Shown here piece after piece: positions 1 through 43,036 of a DNA stretch of 43,144 bases. Every line of letters begins with the position of its first letter. Within the stretch, counting starts at the first letter, position 1. Both the position numbers and the translations under genes were made by a program. Location of the stretch: NCBI GenBank assembly GCA_012522755.1, contig JAAYJV010000143.1:1-43144 (forward strand), written 5' to 3'. The notes beneath the pieces are model-generated. The model searched no databases, was not told where the DNA came from, and was given only the letters and a program-made list of their open reading frames with translations. This DNA is from Candidatus Hydrogenedens sp. Lineage in GTDB: Bacteria > Hydrogenedentota > Hydrogenedentia > Hydrogenedentales > CAITNO01.

Positions 1-300
1 GGGAAGGCGACCGCTGACTTGCTCAGGAGACCAGCCTCGCATGGTCATGTCAATAACATACCGCCTCAGCTGCTCATGATCCCATTTGCGCGGACGCTCA
101 ATCTCCTTTCTGCGTGACTGTGCGCGGTTATGAGCTCTCTGGGCTATATACCTGCCGCCGATGCTGTTTCTTTTAATTTCCCTTCCTATTGAAGAGGGAT
201 GAAAACCCAAATGTTCACCGATGGCTTTCTTGCTCAGCCCGGCTTCCAGGAAAGCTTCTAGTTTTATTCTGTCTTCTAGTGTAAAATGGTGTGGGGACAT
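1..300 (-). CDS. IS30-family transposase, N-terminal part (cut by window edge)
   Basis: One hundred codons are open from an ATG at 298-300 to the first base of the window, with no stop. The protein starts MSPHHFTLEDRIKLEAFLEA and continues with LSKKAIGEHLGFHPSSIGRE, a helix-turn-helix of the kind that opens IS30 transposases, in which a simple HTH precedes a DDE catalytic core. After it come a basic stretch (RAHNRAQSRRK) and WSPEQVSGRL, a typical IS30 phrase just before the core domain. The DDE residues are outside the window, so it cannot be said whether the enzyme is intact. It catalyses cut-and-paste or circle-based transposition in this family. The start codon lies inside one arm of the element's inverted repeat. 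Confidence 0.85.
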   Translation of the reverse strand, partial: MSPHHFTLEDRIKLEAFLEAGLSKKAIGEHLGFHPSSIGREIKRNSIGGRYIAQRAHNRAQSRRKEIERPRKWDHEQLRRYVIDMTMRGWSPEQVSGRLP

Positions 301-370
301 TGTGTGCTCCTTCGGTTGTTTTGTTTCAAAAACCCATTCTACCGAAGAGGGCCGCAATGTCTCCTCTTTT
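1..370 (-). mobile_element. IS30-family insertion sequence, left end (runs off the window)
   Basis: The stretch holds the beginning of an IS30-type transposase gene plus about 70 bp of upstream terminal sequence. The outer boundary near 370 is set by comparison with a second, decayed copy near 30.2-30.34 kb: both share sequence up to CAATGTCTCCTCTTTT and diverge after it. The terminal part contains an imperfect inverted repeat (about 292-305 against 353-366) built on GACATTG/CAATGTC. The other end of the element lies outside the window, so neither its full length nor any target-site duplication can be seen. Confidence 0.7.
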
Positions 371-563
371 TGTCTACAAAAAATTGCGTTTCGTTCTTGA
401 ACTCACGGTTTGTTTTCCCTGATTTCTCAGTTCAAGTGAATTTCAAGTTTCAGCATAAAATAGAGGGAGGTTGAAGGTGGAAAGTGATTGCCCATAAAGT
501 GTACTGTATTCATAACCTGGAGCAAAATTCATTGATTGAAAAACTTCAAAGGAGATCCTTTTC

Positions 564-1334
564 ATGTCAGGTACTGTATTGGCTGTAGGGGCTCATCCCG
601 ACGATATTGAGTTCATGATGGCGGGAACACTTTTGCAACTGGTCAGAAAAAACTGGGAAGCCCATGTTTTTGTCGTGGCCAGCGGCAGCTTGGGCAGTGC
701 CGTAACAGACAGAGATGAAACGGTGAGAATCCGCCATGAAGAAGCGCGCAGGGCTGCTGAAATCATGGGTGCACATTTTCATTCTCCCATTGTTGACGAT
801 CTTGAAATTTTTTACACACTCCCGCTATTGCGTAAAGTTTCCGCTGTCATTCGCCAGGTAAAGCCGACAATCATACTGACTCATTCTCCTTCAGAGTACA
901 TGGAGGATCATGAATGCACTTGCCGTCTGGTCGTCTCTTCCGCTTTTTGCAGAGGAATGCAAAACTTTGAGACTGATCCCGCTGTAAACATCATGACAGA
1001 AAATCTCACAGTTTATCATTGCCTGCCCTATGGATTGCGTGACCCTTTGAACAGAATTGTGAGCCCTGATTTTTATGTAGACACAGGGGAGTGCCTGGAA
1101 AGCAAAAAGAAGGCTCTCGCCTCTCATCGCAGTCAAAAAGAGTGGCTCGACCAAAGTCAGGGGATAGACAGTTATATTCATTCCATGCTCGACATGAGCC
1201 GCAGGATGGGAAGGGACAGCGGAGTCTTTGAACATGCTGAAGGCTGGATTCGCCACAATCCTTTGGGTTTTTGTGAAGAAAATGACCGTCCACTTGAAAA
1301 TGCCCTCGGTCCTCAGCTCATTCGTCACACCTGA
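564..1334 (+). CDS. PIG-L family deacetylase (LmbE-like)
   Basis: This 256-residue protein belongs to the PIG-L/LmbE zinc deacetylases, which remove acetyl groups from N-acetylglucosamine-type sugars (MshB, BshB and related enzymes). The opening VLAVGAHPDDIEF carries the family AHPDD motif, whose His and Asp bind zinc and act as base. The third zinc ligand is probably the His of MEDHECT near residue 115. AAEIMGA and the LTHSPSEYMEDH region also fit the family. The start is well supported by AAAGGAGATC just upstream of the ATG. There is no signal peptide, so it should act in the cytoplasm. The substrate cannot be read from the sequence; it could be a glycan precursor or a thiol-cofactor intermediate. 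It stands alone on the plus strand beside the IS30 end. Confidence 0.85.
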   Translation: MSGTVLAVGAHPDDIEFMMAGTLLQLVRKNWEAHVFVVASGSLGSAVTDRDETVRIRHEEARRAAEIMGAHFHSPIVDDLEIFYTLPLLRKVSAVIRQVKPTIILTHSPSEYMEDHECTCRLVVSSAFCRGMQNFETDPAVNIMTENLTVYHCLPYGLRDPLNRIVSPDFYVDTGECLESKKKALASHRSQKEWLDQSQGIDSYIHSMLDMSRRMGRDSGVFEHAEGWIRHNPLGFCEENDRPLENALGPQLIRHT

Positions 1335-8762: not shown

Positions 8763-10163
8763 TCAGGATGGTGAGGCTTTGTCTGCGGAAGGGTGGGAAA
8801 AGAGGACTTTCCCCAGAATGTCTCCCTGAGAAATCCATCCCAAAGTGCGGCTGTCATTTTCGTACTGTTTTTCAGCGGCATCATCAGAAAGAATATAATA
8901 AGCCCCTTCGGGTACTCGGGAAAAATCTTTTGATTTTACCTTGCCATATTTGATGTCAGGCCCGTCCATTTCGTAGCTCCGGCTTGCAAAGGGCTCGGAA
9001 TCGAGTAATGTGTCATCTATATGCAGCTTGCCTTCTCTAAATGAGATAGCTTCCTTTTCTGTGCCGGCAATACGACCAATAAGAAGGACATGTTCTTTTG
9101 AGTCCTCCAGCCTGACTTTGAACAAAACCAGATCGCCCCGACCGGGTTTGCGCCAGCTGAGGATGCGCCGTTGTACCACAGGCACCAACAAGCCATAGTT
9201 GAGAAAAGAAACAAGATGTCTGCGGGATACAGAAAAGTCCTTTTTTCTTGTGGTGCAGATGCGACCGACAAAAAGCCGCAGGAGAATGAGACCGCCCAGC
9301 AGAGTGATCAGAGAGCGCCACCAGAGTTCCCCTGTGAATCCGGTGAAGTCGCGCCAGCGGGGCGGGGGCCACCAGATTCCGGAGACACGGCCGACAAGAT
9401 GGTTGTTGGGTACCCAGCCGAAATAGCGTCCATCACGACTGTGTGCGCTGTTATCGCCAAGAAGCAGATAATGGTCTGGAGGAATTTGAGAATAATCAGG
9501 GGAAGACTGAACGCCCCAGGGGCCATCCAGGGGCGTGGTGAAATAGATATCCTGGCCAACGCTTTCAGGAACAGTAAGGGGAACGCCATCAGCATAAACA
9601 CGGCCGTTGCGTATCTGAATTTCTTCTCCCGGAAGACCGACAACACGTTTGACCAGGGTTTTATGAATGGCATCTTTTTCAACAGTTTTGAAAACAACGA
9701 TGTCCCACCGTTCCGGAAGTTTTCCACGCCAGATACGTTTATTAAGAAAGGGATATCGCAAGCCGAAAATAAATTTATTGACGAAGACCCGATCGCCACG
9801 TCCGAATCGGGGGTCCCCGTGAAGGGCCGTTTCCATGGAGCCTGAGGGGATGCGATAAGGTTCCGCCACGGCCCAGCGTATGGTAAGGGCAAGCAATAAG
9901 GCAATGAGACCGCTTCGGACCCACTCAATGACCTGACTGCGATCCATGCCGCTGACAAACCAGAGAATGGCGCTGCATACAACAAGCGCAATGGCGAGAT
10001 AGTTTTTCCAGGTAAAGGCATCCTGTCCATTGCGCCCCAGAAAATAAAGTGCGGCTATACCGCATGCAAAAAGAACAGCAGCCAGATAAGAGGCCTCAGC
10101 TGGAATCAGAGGGTTCACCTGTTCATCTACGGGATCGTCAGATCTTTTTTTCTTTTTAGACAT
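8763..10163 (-). CDS. lepB: Signal peptidase I with a second, degenerate S26 domain
   Basis: Type I leader peptidase that cuts Sec and Tat signal peptides on the outer face of the inner membrane. Three hydrophobic segments (about 24-44, 53-71, 80-98) precede the first S26 domain. This has the catalytic Ser109 in IPSGSM, Lys172 in KRVVGLPGE and the GDNSAHSRDGRYFGW box (236-250). A fourth hydrophobic stretch (282-299) follows. Residues about 333-455 then repeat the fold: GRGDLVLFK, GRIAGTEKEAISFREGKLHI and LSDDAAEKQYENDSRTLGW line up with the first copy, but the Lys position is Gly363 and no PSGSM is present. The second domain therefore cannot be a Ser-Lys protease. At 466 residues it is longer than most bacterial LepB. 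It heads the hemW-aat-dtd group. Confidence 0.93.
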   Translation of the reverse strand: MSKKKKRSDDPVDEQVNPLIPAEASYLAAVLFACGIAALYFLGRNGQDAFTWKNYLAIALVVCSAILWFVSGMDRSQVIEWVRSGLIALLLALTIRWAVAEPYRIPSGSMETALHGDPRFGRGDRVFVNKFIFGLRYPFLNKRIWRGKLPERWDIVVFKTVEKDAIHKTLVKRVVGLPGEEIQIRNGRVYADGVPLTVPESVGQDIYFTTPLDGPWGVQSSPDYSQIPPDHYLLLGDNSAHSRDGRYFGWVPNNHLVGRVSGIWWPPPRWRDFTGFTGELWWRSLITLLGGLILLRLFVGRICTTRKKDFSVSRRHLVSFLNYGLLVPVVQRRILSWRKPGRGDLVLFKVRLEDSKEHVLLIGRIAGTEKEAISFREGKLHIDDTLLDSEPFASRSYEMDGPDIKYGKVKSKDFSRVPEGAYYILSDDAAEKQYENDSRTLGWISQGDILGKVLFSHPSADKASPS

Positions 10164-32290: not shown

Positions 32291-33580
32291 TTATTTTTTC
32301 CGAAGCCCTTCCAACTCGTAAGCCGGCAGTTTCTTGTCCGCGAAAATGGGTTCAAAGCGGGTAAGCCGCTGACGACCGTTGATTATGGGAGTACTGGGCC
32401 AGTCTTCGCCAATGAGCGGTTTGGCATAGGCAACAAAATCATCGGTCACATCCGTTCTTGAATCTGTGATCCAGGCATCGGGGAAAGTGCGCTCAGAGTT
32501 GGCCACCAGTTCCAGAGGCACTTTGTCATAGCGGACATTGTAAATGGGCCCTGGCTCACGGAGAATGGTCGCCATCCAGCCATTCTCGCCGGATACTGCA
32601 ATGAGAGCCGCCTGCTGTCCCACCTTGTAGGCCTCGTCCAGATCGACGATGGAGGCATAAGCCGTTGTGCCGCGCTGATCTGTCCCGGGCACCTGACCTC
32701 GGGCACTTCCCGCGGCGGGCAAACCATTCTGATTCAGGAGATTCACTACTTTCTGGGCCACAGTCATTTGTGAAGAGCCGAAGCTGGTATGGCCGAAACT
32801 GTCATGGACTTCGCCCAGCTCACCCGCATCAAAGCCTTCACTCACGACTACAAGACAACGGCCATCTTTTCTGACCTGGTCATTGACACGATCACAGAGT
32901 TCCTGAGCGCTCACTTTGGATTCCGCCATGTAAATCTGCAGAGGCATGGCCCGTTCCGGGTCGGCCAGACGTGCCGCCGCGGGAATATAGCCTATGCGCC
33001 GTCCCATGGCCTGCAAGACCAGCACAGGATCGGCCGGGGAGGAACCGGCATTCTCTTCATTGGCATTCTGTACCATGGCCATCCAATAGCGGGCGACACT
33101 TCCATATCCGGGAGTATGGTCAATGAGTTTGAATTCAGAGTCGCCCACATCGTTGTCAATGGTCTTGGGCACTCCCACAGACACAAGGTCCATTCCCTGT
33201 TCAATGGCAATCTGCGCCACCTTATGGGCTGTGTCCATGGAATCATTGCCGCCGTTATAGAAAAAATAGCCGATATTATGGGCCTTCAAAACTTCAATAA
33301 CCCGCTGAAAATCTTCCTGCTGACTTGTTTTCAATTTATACCGGCAGGTGCCAATGGCTCCGGCTGCAGGGGTATAACGAAGAAGCGCGATTTCTTCTTC
33401 CGCCTGGGCACTGAGGTTCAGCAGTTCCTCTTAGAGAACCCCTTCAATCCCATGCCAGCCGGCATAAATGGTACCGAAAGTATCGGGATACATTTTGCAG
33501 GTATCCACAACGCCCCGCAAGGAGCTGTTGATCACAGGACTGGGGCCGCCGGACTGAGCTACAAGGACATTTTTCTTCAT
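32291..33580 (-). CDS. pfp: PPi-type 6-phosphofructokinase, interrupted by an in-frame TAA at codon 50
   Basis: Phosphofructokinase makes fructose 1,6-bisphosphate. The first 49 codons (33580-33434) read MKKNVLVAQSGGPSPVINSS and on through YAGWHGIEGVL, carrying the phosphate loop. Then comes TAA (33433-33431), after which the same frame continues without a break through EELLNLSAQAEEEI and RYTPAAGAIGTCRYK to the main body. The body has FFYNGGNDSMDTAHK, GVPKTIDNDVG and LQAMGRRIGYIPAAARLAD. GGNDSMDT in place of GGDGS points to the pyrophosphate-dependent branch. Total 429 codons is normal for that branch. Both sides of the stop look well conserved, so only one base is wrong for an intact enzyme. 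It could be a recent nonsense mutation, a sequence error, or read-through. Last gene of the minus-strand run. Confidence 0.85.
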
Positions 33581-39613: not shown

Positions 39614-42600
39614 TTATTCCACAGAAAAACGATACACGGTTTTACTGCTGTATTTTTCGCCGGGACGCAACAGAGTGGACGGGAACGAGGGGGTATTGGG
39701 CGAATTGGGGAAATGCTGCGTTTCCAGACAGAAGGCGTTTCTATGCTCATAGACTGCGCCACCTTTACCGATATCGGAGCCGTCGAGGAAATTACCGCAA
39801 TAGAGCTGTACGCCCGGCTCTGTGGTCCAGCATTCCAGGACTCGGCCACTGGAAGGAGAAAAGGCACGGGCCGCCCGTTTCATCCGTCCCTGCGGAGCTT
39901 TTTCCACGACAAAGTTATGGTCATAGCCTTTTCCAAAGAGCAATTGTTCGTCATCGGCATCAATACGCGCGCCGATAGCCACGGGCTGACGGAAGTCGAA
40001 GTCCGTACCCGCTACAGGGCGCAACTCGCCTGTGGGGATGAGGGTACTGTCCACAGGCGTCATATGTTCAGCAAAGATGGCCAATTCATGATTCAGAATA
40101 TCCCCCGAGTCATGACCATTCAGATTGAAATAGCAGTGATTGGTCAGGTTTACAGGGGTTGCCTCATCGGTCACAGCCTCATATTCGATTTCGAGACTCT
40201 TGTCAGCAGTGACCCAATAGGTTACTGTACAATCCAGATTTCCCGGATAGCCTTCATCTCCGGCCGGGCTGCGATGGGTCAGGCGAAGACCCACGGCATC
40301 ACTGCGTTCCAGTGCTTCCGCTTTCCAGACTGCTTTGTCAAAGCCGACCACACCGCCATGCAAATGATTTTCACCATCATTTTGTGCCAGCGTATAGGCT
40401 TGGCCATCAATTTCAAAACGACCCCGGGCGATCCTGTTGCCATAACGTCCCACGAGAGCACCAAAATAAGGGTGTTTCCCCTCGTACTTATCCAACGTGT
40501 CAAAACCCAGAGAAAGATCAGCCATTACGCCTTCTTTATCAGGTGCCCAGAGCGACACGATAATGCCGCCGAAATTCGTGATCTCCACTTTAAAATCGTC
40601 AGCAGCTGTAAGCGTGTAGATATCAACACTTTCTCCGGAAGCCGTTTTACCGAACACACGTTTTTCAATATTCATGGATGCTTCTTTCTTCTCTTTCGGC
40701 AATGCAAGCAAAGCCAGGTCTATAAACTGACCACCACCATAATGCTGGCGCACATGGGCCGCCAGAATATTATCTCCAGTTTTGATGGCCGAAGCCACCT
40801 GCTCTGTCAGGTCAAAAGATTCATAGCCATTATTCCACCGGCCCTGACTCAAAATTTCTTTTCCATTCAGATAAAGCTCCACGTCGTCGTCATGATGCAT
40901 GATGACCAGAGCACGCTCCAGATCTTTACCATCAAAGGCGAAGCTCGTACGCAGCCAGATATCATCGCTGTCCCACAGGGTGCGGATATATTGTTCACTG
41001 CCCTCTTTTCTGCCGAAGCCACCGGGTCCGGAGTTCCAGCCACTGTCATCAAAAGACGGTTTTGTCCAGCCTTTACCCGGTTTTTCAAAGCTGTATTTCC
41101 ATTCCTGAGCCTTATCCCGGTCCACGGCCGCACCCACAAGGATCTCATAGGCTGCATCACCTTTTTCAACTTTCAAAGGAGGATCCAGTTCATAGGCCGC
41201 TTTTTGCAGATTCGCTGCACGGATGGGCTCCAGATCAAACTTCAATTGACGATTGTAATCATAGATACCGTTCTGCTCCTGCTCAATATCCGTCAGTTGC
41301 GTATAACAGAAAGCGAAGCAATAGCGGTTGTTCAACAGGGCCGTCGTCAGGCCGTGATAGCGTTCATAAAACTCCTCCAGACTCTTCGGCGTATTGCCAT
41401 ATCCCCAGGCGCCCGAATCAACATTCCAGCCGATCCCGCCATATTCACTGACAAAAAATGGAAGGGACACAGAGCTGCCTCCGTAACGTTGAGGCAGCCC
41501 GTCACCTTGCAATCGCGCTGTCCACCGCGCTTCAAAAGTCTCCGGATTCTGATCGTAATCATGAGCATCCAGCAGCTGGGGCGAAGGATAACCGTGGGTG
41601 TAACCGCTCGTTTCCAGTACGGGCCGCGTCGTATCAATTCGTTTGGTGAGATTCACAACCTGAATTTGCAGAGGAATATCATCAGCCGTTGTTTCATTGA
41701 AAGGACACCAGCCGATTATGGAGGGGTGGTTGAAATCCCGTTCCACAATAGATTGCCATTCACGCAACACAGTGGGAAAGGCCTCTTCTTTACCGGCCTG
41801 GAGACCCCAGTTCGGATATTCGCCCCAGACCAGATAGCCGAGTTTATCGGCCCAGTAAAGAAAACGGGGCTCAAACACTTTCTGATGCAGTCTTGCGCCG
41901 TTGAATCCTGCAGCCAGGGACAATTCAATATCTTTCTTCAAGGCTTCTTCACTGGGTGCCGTCCAAATGCCGTCAGGATAAAAACCCTGATCCAAAACGA
42001 GCCGTTGAAAAATCGCCTCGCCATTCACCAGATAAGAACGGCCTTTCAGCTCAACAGTCCGCAATCCGAAATAACCTTTGAGCTCATCACAGAGCGAAGC
42101 ATCATCAAAAAGGGAGAGTTTCAGATCATAGAGAAAAGGATCTTCAGGCATCCACCAACGGGGCCGGGGCACTGGAAGAAAGAGGAAAGCTTTGGAGCCT
42201 TCGCAAAGCACTGAACTGTCACTGATCATCTTCCCTTCGGCAAAAACCTGCGCAACAACTTTTTGACCCTTGAGGGGCTCAGAAAATCGGATCTCCAGCC
42301 TGGCACCCGAATTCTCTCGATCTGTAATGACCTGATAGGAAAGCATATGCAGAGGATTCACAGCTTCAAGCCACACACTCTGCCAGATGCCTGTTGTCCG
42401 GGTATACATGCAGCCATAACTTTCAAGTTTCGGGCTTTGTTTGCCACCGGCCTGAAGGCCACTGCGAACATCATCAAAAGCATGAATAATCAGTGTGTTA
42501 TCGCCTCTTTGGAGAAAGGGGGTGATATCAGCGCGGATGGGGCTGTTCCCTCCTTCATGAACCCGGGCCTTCTGATCATTCACATAAATGGTGGTCCGGA

Positions 42601-42961
42601 AATCACAGGCGCCTATATGAAGGATGATTGTTTTTTCATCCCAGCTGTCGGGTAAAGAAACAGTTCTTCTGTACCACACGTTGTTGACGAAGGAAGTGCG
42701 GCCCAGACCCGAAAGGCTGCTCTCTCTGCAAAAGGGAACCACAATACGGTCCGGATAGGCGGAATCGCCAAGAAAGCTGTCGTCCCCGTCCGTTTCCGCA
42801 AACTCCCAGGATCCGTTCAAGCTCATCCAGTCCGTGCGCATCAACTGCGGATCAGGATGCTCACTCCGTGGAATTTCCTTCGCCTGAAGGGGAGAACAGA
42901 TTCCAAAGAGACAAAATAACAGGCAAATAGCCAAAAAAGCTTTCCATCGTTTCTGATTCAT
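39614..42961 (-). CDS. Secreted GH2 glycoside hydrolase fused to a galactose mutarotase (GalM)
   Basis: A 1115-residue exported multi-domain enzyme. Signal peptide AFLAICLLFCLFGICSPLQA. A GH2 module follows, with a sugar-binding jelly roll (SLNGSWEFAETD, VWYRRTV), an immunoglobulin-like part and a barrel carrying the acid/base Glu423 in PFNETTADD and the nucleophile Glu506 in FVSEYGGIGW. Residues about 620-755 are a beta-sandwich (WTKPSFDDSGWNSGPGGFG, MHHDDDVELYLNGKEI). From Met763 a complete aldose 1-epimerase follows: FGGIIVSLWAPDKEG, NRIARGRF, NHLHGG and NLTNHCYFNLNG (catalytic His) and FCLETQHFPNSPN (Glu). Releasing and interconverting anomers of the same sugar makes sense; the sugar is probably a beta-galactoside. 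Start at 42961 is set by AGGAG. Alternative: internal translation start at Met763. Confidence 0.88.
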   Translation of the reverse strand: MNQKRWKAFLAICLLFCLFGICSPLQAKEIPRSEHPDPQLMRTDWMSLNGSWEFAETDGDDSFLGDSAYPDRIVVPFCRESSLSGLGRTSFVNNVWYRRTVSLPDSWDEKTIILHIGACDFRTTIYVNDQKARVHEGGNSPIRADITPFLQRGDNTLIIHAFDDVRSGLQAGGKQSPKLESYGCMYTRTTGIWQSVWLEAVNPLHMLSYQVITDRENSGARLEIRFSEPLKGQKVVAQVFAEGKMISDSSVLCEGSKAFLFLPVPRPRWWMPEDPFLYDLKLSLFDDASLCDELKGYFGLRTVELKGRSYLVNGEAIFQRLVLDQGFYPDGIWTAPSEEALKKDIELSLAAGFNGARLHQKVFEPRFLYWADKLGYLVWGEYPNWGLQAGKEEAFPTVLREWQSIVERDFNHPSIIGWCPFNETTADDIPLQIQVVNLTKRIDTTRPVLETSGYTHGYPSPQLLDAHDYDQNPETFEARWTARLQGDGLPQRYGGSSVSLPFFVSEYGGIGWNVDSGAWGYGNTPKSLEEFYERYHGLTTALLNNRYCFAFCYTQLTDIEQEQNGIYDYNRQLKFDLEPIRAANLQKAAYELDPPLKVEKGDAAYEILVGAAVDRDKAQEWKYSFEKPGKGWTKPSFDDSGWNSGPGGFGRKEGSEQYIRTLWDSDDIWLRTSFAFDGKDLERALVIMHHDDDVELYLNGKEILSQGRWNNGYESFDLTEQVASAIKTGDNILAAHVRQHYGGGQFIDLALLALPKEKKEASMNIEKRVFGKTASGESVDIYTLTAADDFKVEITNFGGIIVSLWAPDKEGVMADLSLGFDTLDKYEGKHPYFGALVGRYGNRIARGRFEIDGQAYTLAQNDGENHLHGGVVGFDKAVWKAEALERSDAVGLRLTHRSPAGDEGYPGNLDCTVTYWVTADKSLEIEYEAVTDEATPVNLTNHCYFNLNGHDSGDILNHELAIFAEHMTPVDSTLIPTGELRPVAGTDFDFRQPVAIGARIDADDEQLLFGKGYDHNFVVEKAPQGRMKRAARAFSPSSGRVLECWTTEPGVQLYCGNFLDGSDIGKGGAVYEHRNAFCLETQHFPNSPNTPSFPSTLLRPGEKYSSKTVYRFSVE

Positions 42962-43036
42962 AAGAGCCGCTCCTGAAAATTGTATTGTCGTTTCCAATCA
43001 GAGACACAATTGTAACATCCTTATATGCTGCCAGAA

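Follow-up and report, generated by a model that had tools for sequence, protein, structure and literature searches.

An in-frame stop codon in a PPi-dependent phosphofructokinase gene of a Candidatus Hydrogenedens genome: wrong base or very recent mutation?

A gene for a central metabolic enzyme that is conserved on both sides of an internal stop codon raises the question of whether the enzyme has been lost or a base is wrong. Such a gene lies in the 43,144-nucleotide stretch analysed here (the window), which is the entire contig 115 (JAAYJV010000143.1) of a 4.0 Mb Candidatus Hydrogenedens genome in 199 contigs. Completeness is put at 95% and contamination at 0.7%, and the genome's relatives and contig number suggest that it is a metagenome-assembled genome (MAG). 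Elsewhere in the window, positions 8763-10163 (minus strand) hold a 466-aa ORF with a tandem pair of signal peptidase S26 stretches, and positions 1-357 (minus), at the contig edge, hold an HTH_38 domain fragment resembling the start of an IS30-like transposase.

The interrupted gene, a PPi-dependent phosphofructokinase (PPi-PFK) of the NCBIfam PRK14072 type, occupies 32291..33580 on the minus strand and comprises 429 codons plus a stop. From the ATG at 33580 down to 32288 the frame reads MKKNVLVAQSGGPSPVINSS...GIEGVL, TAA at codon 50, EELLNLSAQ...ELEGLRKK and TAA at codon 430. The internal stop corresponds to TTA at 33431-33433 of the plus strand, and thus to TAA on the minus strand (33431..33433). 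Before it lie 49 codons (33434..33580, minus) containing the phosphate loop QSGGPSPVINSS; after it, 379 further codons and the terminator (32291..33430, minus) are intact and carry the GGNDSMDTA and PKTIDND motifs. The whole gene stays in a single frame with no indel and no second internal stop. Among ORFs with a listed start, the longest in the part after the TAA opens with a TTG at 33334.

Both pieces belong to the same family. The 49-aa piece matches residues 2-49 of the PRK14072 profile (E 3.4e-13), and the 379-aa piece matches residues 51-414 (E 2.8e-90, 303 bits, above the cut-off). With X at codon 50, the full frame scores 369.1 bits against a cut-off of 273 and spans positions 2-414 of the 416 in the model. 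Judged from these profiles, the matches flanking the TAA are not due to chance. PKTIDND is the catalytic motif of PPi-dependent PFK, and the window gene contains it in VGVPKTIDNDVGD. According to the published motif rule, GGDG indicates ATP and GGDD indicates PPi as phosphoryl donor, the Asp at the fourth position being the PPi signature (PMC12203962). The window gene has GGND, with the signature Asp at the fourth position and Asn instead of Asp at the third. The N-terminal GG phosphate loop (QSGGPSP) precedes the TAA and the other motifs follow it, so that they do not lie in one reading unit; the gene as written is therefore an interrupted PRK14072 member and not a working one. These results bear out the preliminary description, which had reported an in-frame TAA at codon 50 of a PPi-type PFK gene, family sequence kept on both flanks, and a downstream part without the phosphate loop.

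That description had also proposed examining the same locus in related genomes. Of 40 relatives, nearly all carry a gene of the PPi-PFK family, as a rule one that is free of stops. Alignment to the read-through protein gave 99 matches with E of at most 1e-60; two of these are the window, and a few records are duplicated under other locus ids. Outside the window, none of them is interrupted at codon 50. Most close relatives have AAA or AAG (Lys) there and a few have CGC (Arg), while distant relatives are more variable. The Lys codons, AAA or AAG, of the nearest relatives agree with the earlier remark that the stop is one base from a sense codon. The same-genus orthologue in Ca. Hydrogenedentes bacterium ADurb.Bin170 (MWCY01000054) is 90.6% identical to the window PFK over 427 aa and shares its gene order, but is intact and has Lys (AAA) at codon 50. 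In G023, a MAG of the same order but of another taxonomic family, the PPi-PFK orthologue (locus L036) carries an independent lone stop elsewhere, a TAG at codon 148 (near position 2639). Stops flagged in four further loci (L097, L100, L126 and L132) are not interruptions, as they fall at query positions 424-425, where those proteins end.

How old could the change be? The surroundings are collinear with contig 54 of ADurb.Bin170 and comprise genes for a metallo-beta-lactamase, the PFK, a Lar_N (lactate racemase-like) protein, a 2-hydroxyacid dehydrogenase, a DUF2961 protein, oligopeptidase F and a GH2/aldose-epimerase protein. The last of these, at 39614-42997 (minus), is one 1127-aa ORF in which a glycoside hydrolase family 2 protein is fused to an aldose 1-epimerase (Pfam), and a frame of fusion length also occurs in ADurb.Bin170 (72.7% identity). 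Within the block, the PFK is the most strongly conserved gene (90.6% identity to ADurb.Bin170 vs 55-81% for its neighbours) and the only one interrupted, with no stop in any of the six neighbours compared. For the two PFK genes, NG86 gives a nearly saturated pS of 0.69 and a pN of 0.057. At conserved sites the window has two unique changes and ADurb.Bin170 three; the two in the window (L130M and L236V), at invariant or nearly invariant sites, are both conservative and as few as in intact genes. Lineage-unique changes number 18 in the window vs 8 in ADurb.Bin170 with G004 as outgroup, and 16 vs 15 with G003; across outgroups the window has 16-20 and ADurb.Bin170 8-15, a slight and weak excess. 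Looking for signs of a pseudogene in the window PFK, we found neither relaxed constraint nor further lesions, pN being far below pS and no second lesion being present. Because pN is far below pS and conserved-site changes are few, the gene was under selection until very recently, or is still selected and carries a wrong base. If the interruption is a real event, this outcome would allow only a very recent one. The earlier proposal of recent decay or artefact fits the single lesion and the low pN.

An isolated stop also occurs elsewhere in this genome. We sampled the rate of such stops by searches for five families (ABC_tran, GFO_IDH_MocA, Radical_SAM, Aminotran_1_2 and Sulfatase), which is not a genome-wide count, and found one internal stop among 173 matches. 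It is a TAA in a radical SAM gene on a short contig (C143). At this rate, isolated stops are uncommon but not unique in the MAG, and some would be expected among its few thousand genes. The affected radical SAM activase frame (locus L164, about 3-650, plus strand) has one in-frame TAA and adjoins an intact glycyl-radical-enzyme-like ORF. The 20 genomes searched contained no close relative of it, the best matches having 36-40% identity, so that C143 may not be native to the genome.

What would the loss of the window PFK mean for the cell? The preliminary description had suggested that it would affect central glycolysis unless another PFK existed, and had proposed looking for one. The genome contains three further PFK-family genes without stops. 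One (on C6) is an ATP-type PfkA (TIGR02482 PFKA_ATP, 410 bits; GGDGS, PGTIDND); another (C9) is a PRK14072-type PPi-PFK paralogue (467 bits; GGNDS, PKTIDND); the remaining one (C32) is a divergent PFK that reaches no model's cut-off (MGGDN, PKTMDGD). Because these three are intact and two of them are a PfkA of the ATP type and another PRK14072-type enzyme, loss of the window gene would not be expected to abolish the glycolytic step, and the suggested loss of central glycolysis is not supported. The extra PPi-PFK may serve in reverse flux, PPi balance or sedoheptulose phosphate metabolism. A literature search for Hydrogenedentes and phosphofructokinase returned nothing.

We favour, at about an even chance, the reading that the codon-50 TAA arose in the MAG by an error of consensus or assembly, or is the base of a minority strain. 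A single-base substitution would have converted a sense codon, which encodes Lys in the nearest relatives, to TAA in a well-conserved PPi-PFK gene; taken at face value, the gene would yield a 49-residue fragment and no enzyme. This reading is consistent with a full-length gene in one frame with a lone lesion, the intact ADurb.Bin170 orthologue, conservation stronger than that of any other gene in the block, the rarity of stops in the MAG, selection until very recently, the few unique changes at conserved sites and the other isolated stop in G023. Against it count the rest of the collinear block, which is uninterrupted, and the completeness and low contamination of the genome. Nearly as likely is a real, very recent nonsense mutation, giving a fresh pseudogene whose loss is tolerated through PfkA and the second PPi-type PFK. 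The three intact PFK-family genes, the in-frame TAA in one other conserved-domain gene (radical SAM) and the slight, not decisive, lean of the relative-rate counts towards the window point this way, whereas the family is normally kept, intact copies occurring in nearly all relatives searched, and a second lesion and clear relaxation of constraint are missing. It is rather improbable that the stop is not only real but also fixed, one of two PPi-type PFKs having recently been lost in the lineage and its role taken over by the ATP enzyme and the second PPi enzyme; in that case, the independent TAG in G023 would hint at repeated loss of this paralogue in the order.

Alternatively, a working enzyme might be preserved despite the stop. 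A downstream restart, or two fragments that assemble, could draw on the GAGGAA directly after the stop, the open remaining frame and the TTG at 33334, which could start a 347-aa product. However, GAGGAA corresponds to conserved Glu-Glu codons of the relatives, and no relative compared is split at codon 50. Since the stop has no ATG close by and the product would have no GG phosphate loop, a restart is very unlikely. Read-through of the TAA, by a reassigned code or a suppressor tRNA, is the least credible, even with intact flanks and a second in-frame TAA on C143: in the five other families, 172 of the 173 matches are free of internal stops. We rejected recoding by a suppressor tRNA, as the 45 tRNAs found in a genome of this completeness include none with the anticodon UUA and the PFK gene itself ends in TAA.

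Error or mutation alike, the codon-50 interruption has no function of its own. Its importance is small: when a MAG gene shows a single in-frame stop, the reads should be checked before metabolic loss is inferred. If the stop is real, one PPi-PFK paralogue would be dispensable in a bacterium with redundant PFKs.

In comparison with known systems, the window gene has the same full-length match and the GGND and PKTIDND motifs of NCBIfam NF010675 (PRK14072, diphosphate--fructose-6-phosphate 1-phosphotransferase), and differs from it by the stop at codon 50. Over nearly its whole length, the frame is also collinear with two solved PPi-PFKs, 3K2Q (E about 1e-76) and 3HNO (about 1e-74), across residues 3-419/421; these have GGGDS in place of GGNDS and lack the stop. 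In its single stop within a frame that is otherwise conserved, the window gene resembles recent bacterial pseudogenes and the single-stop genes of MAGs, with nothing distinctive. A MAG in which one base puts a lone stop into a conserved but redundant enzyme gene is an ordinary case.
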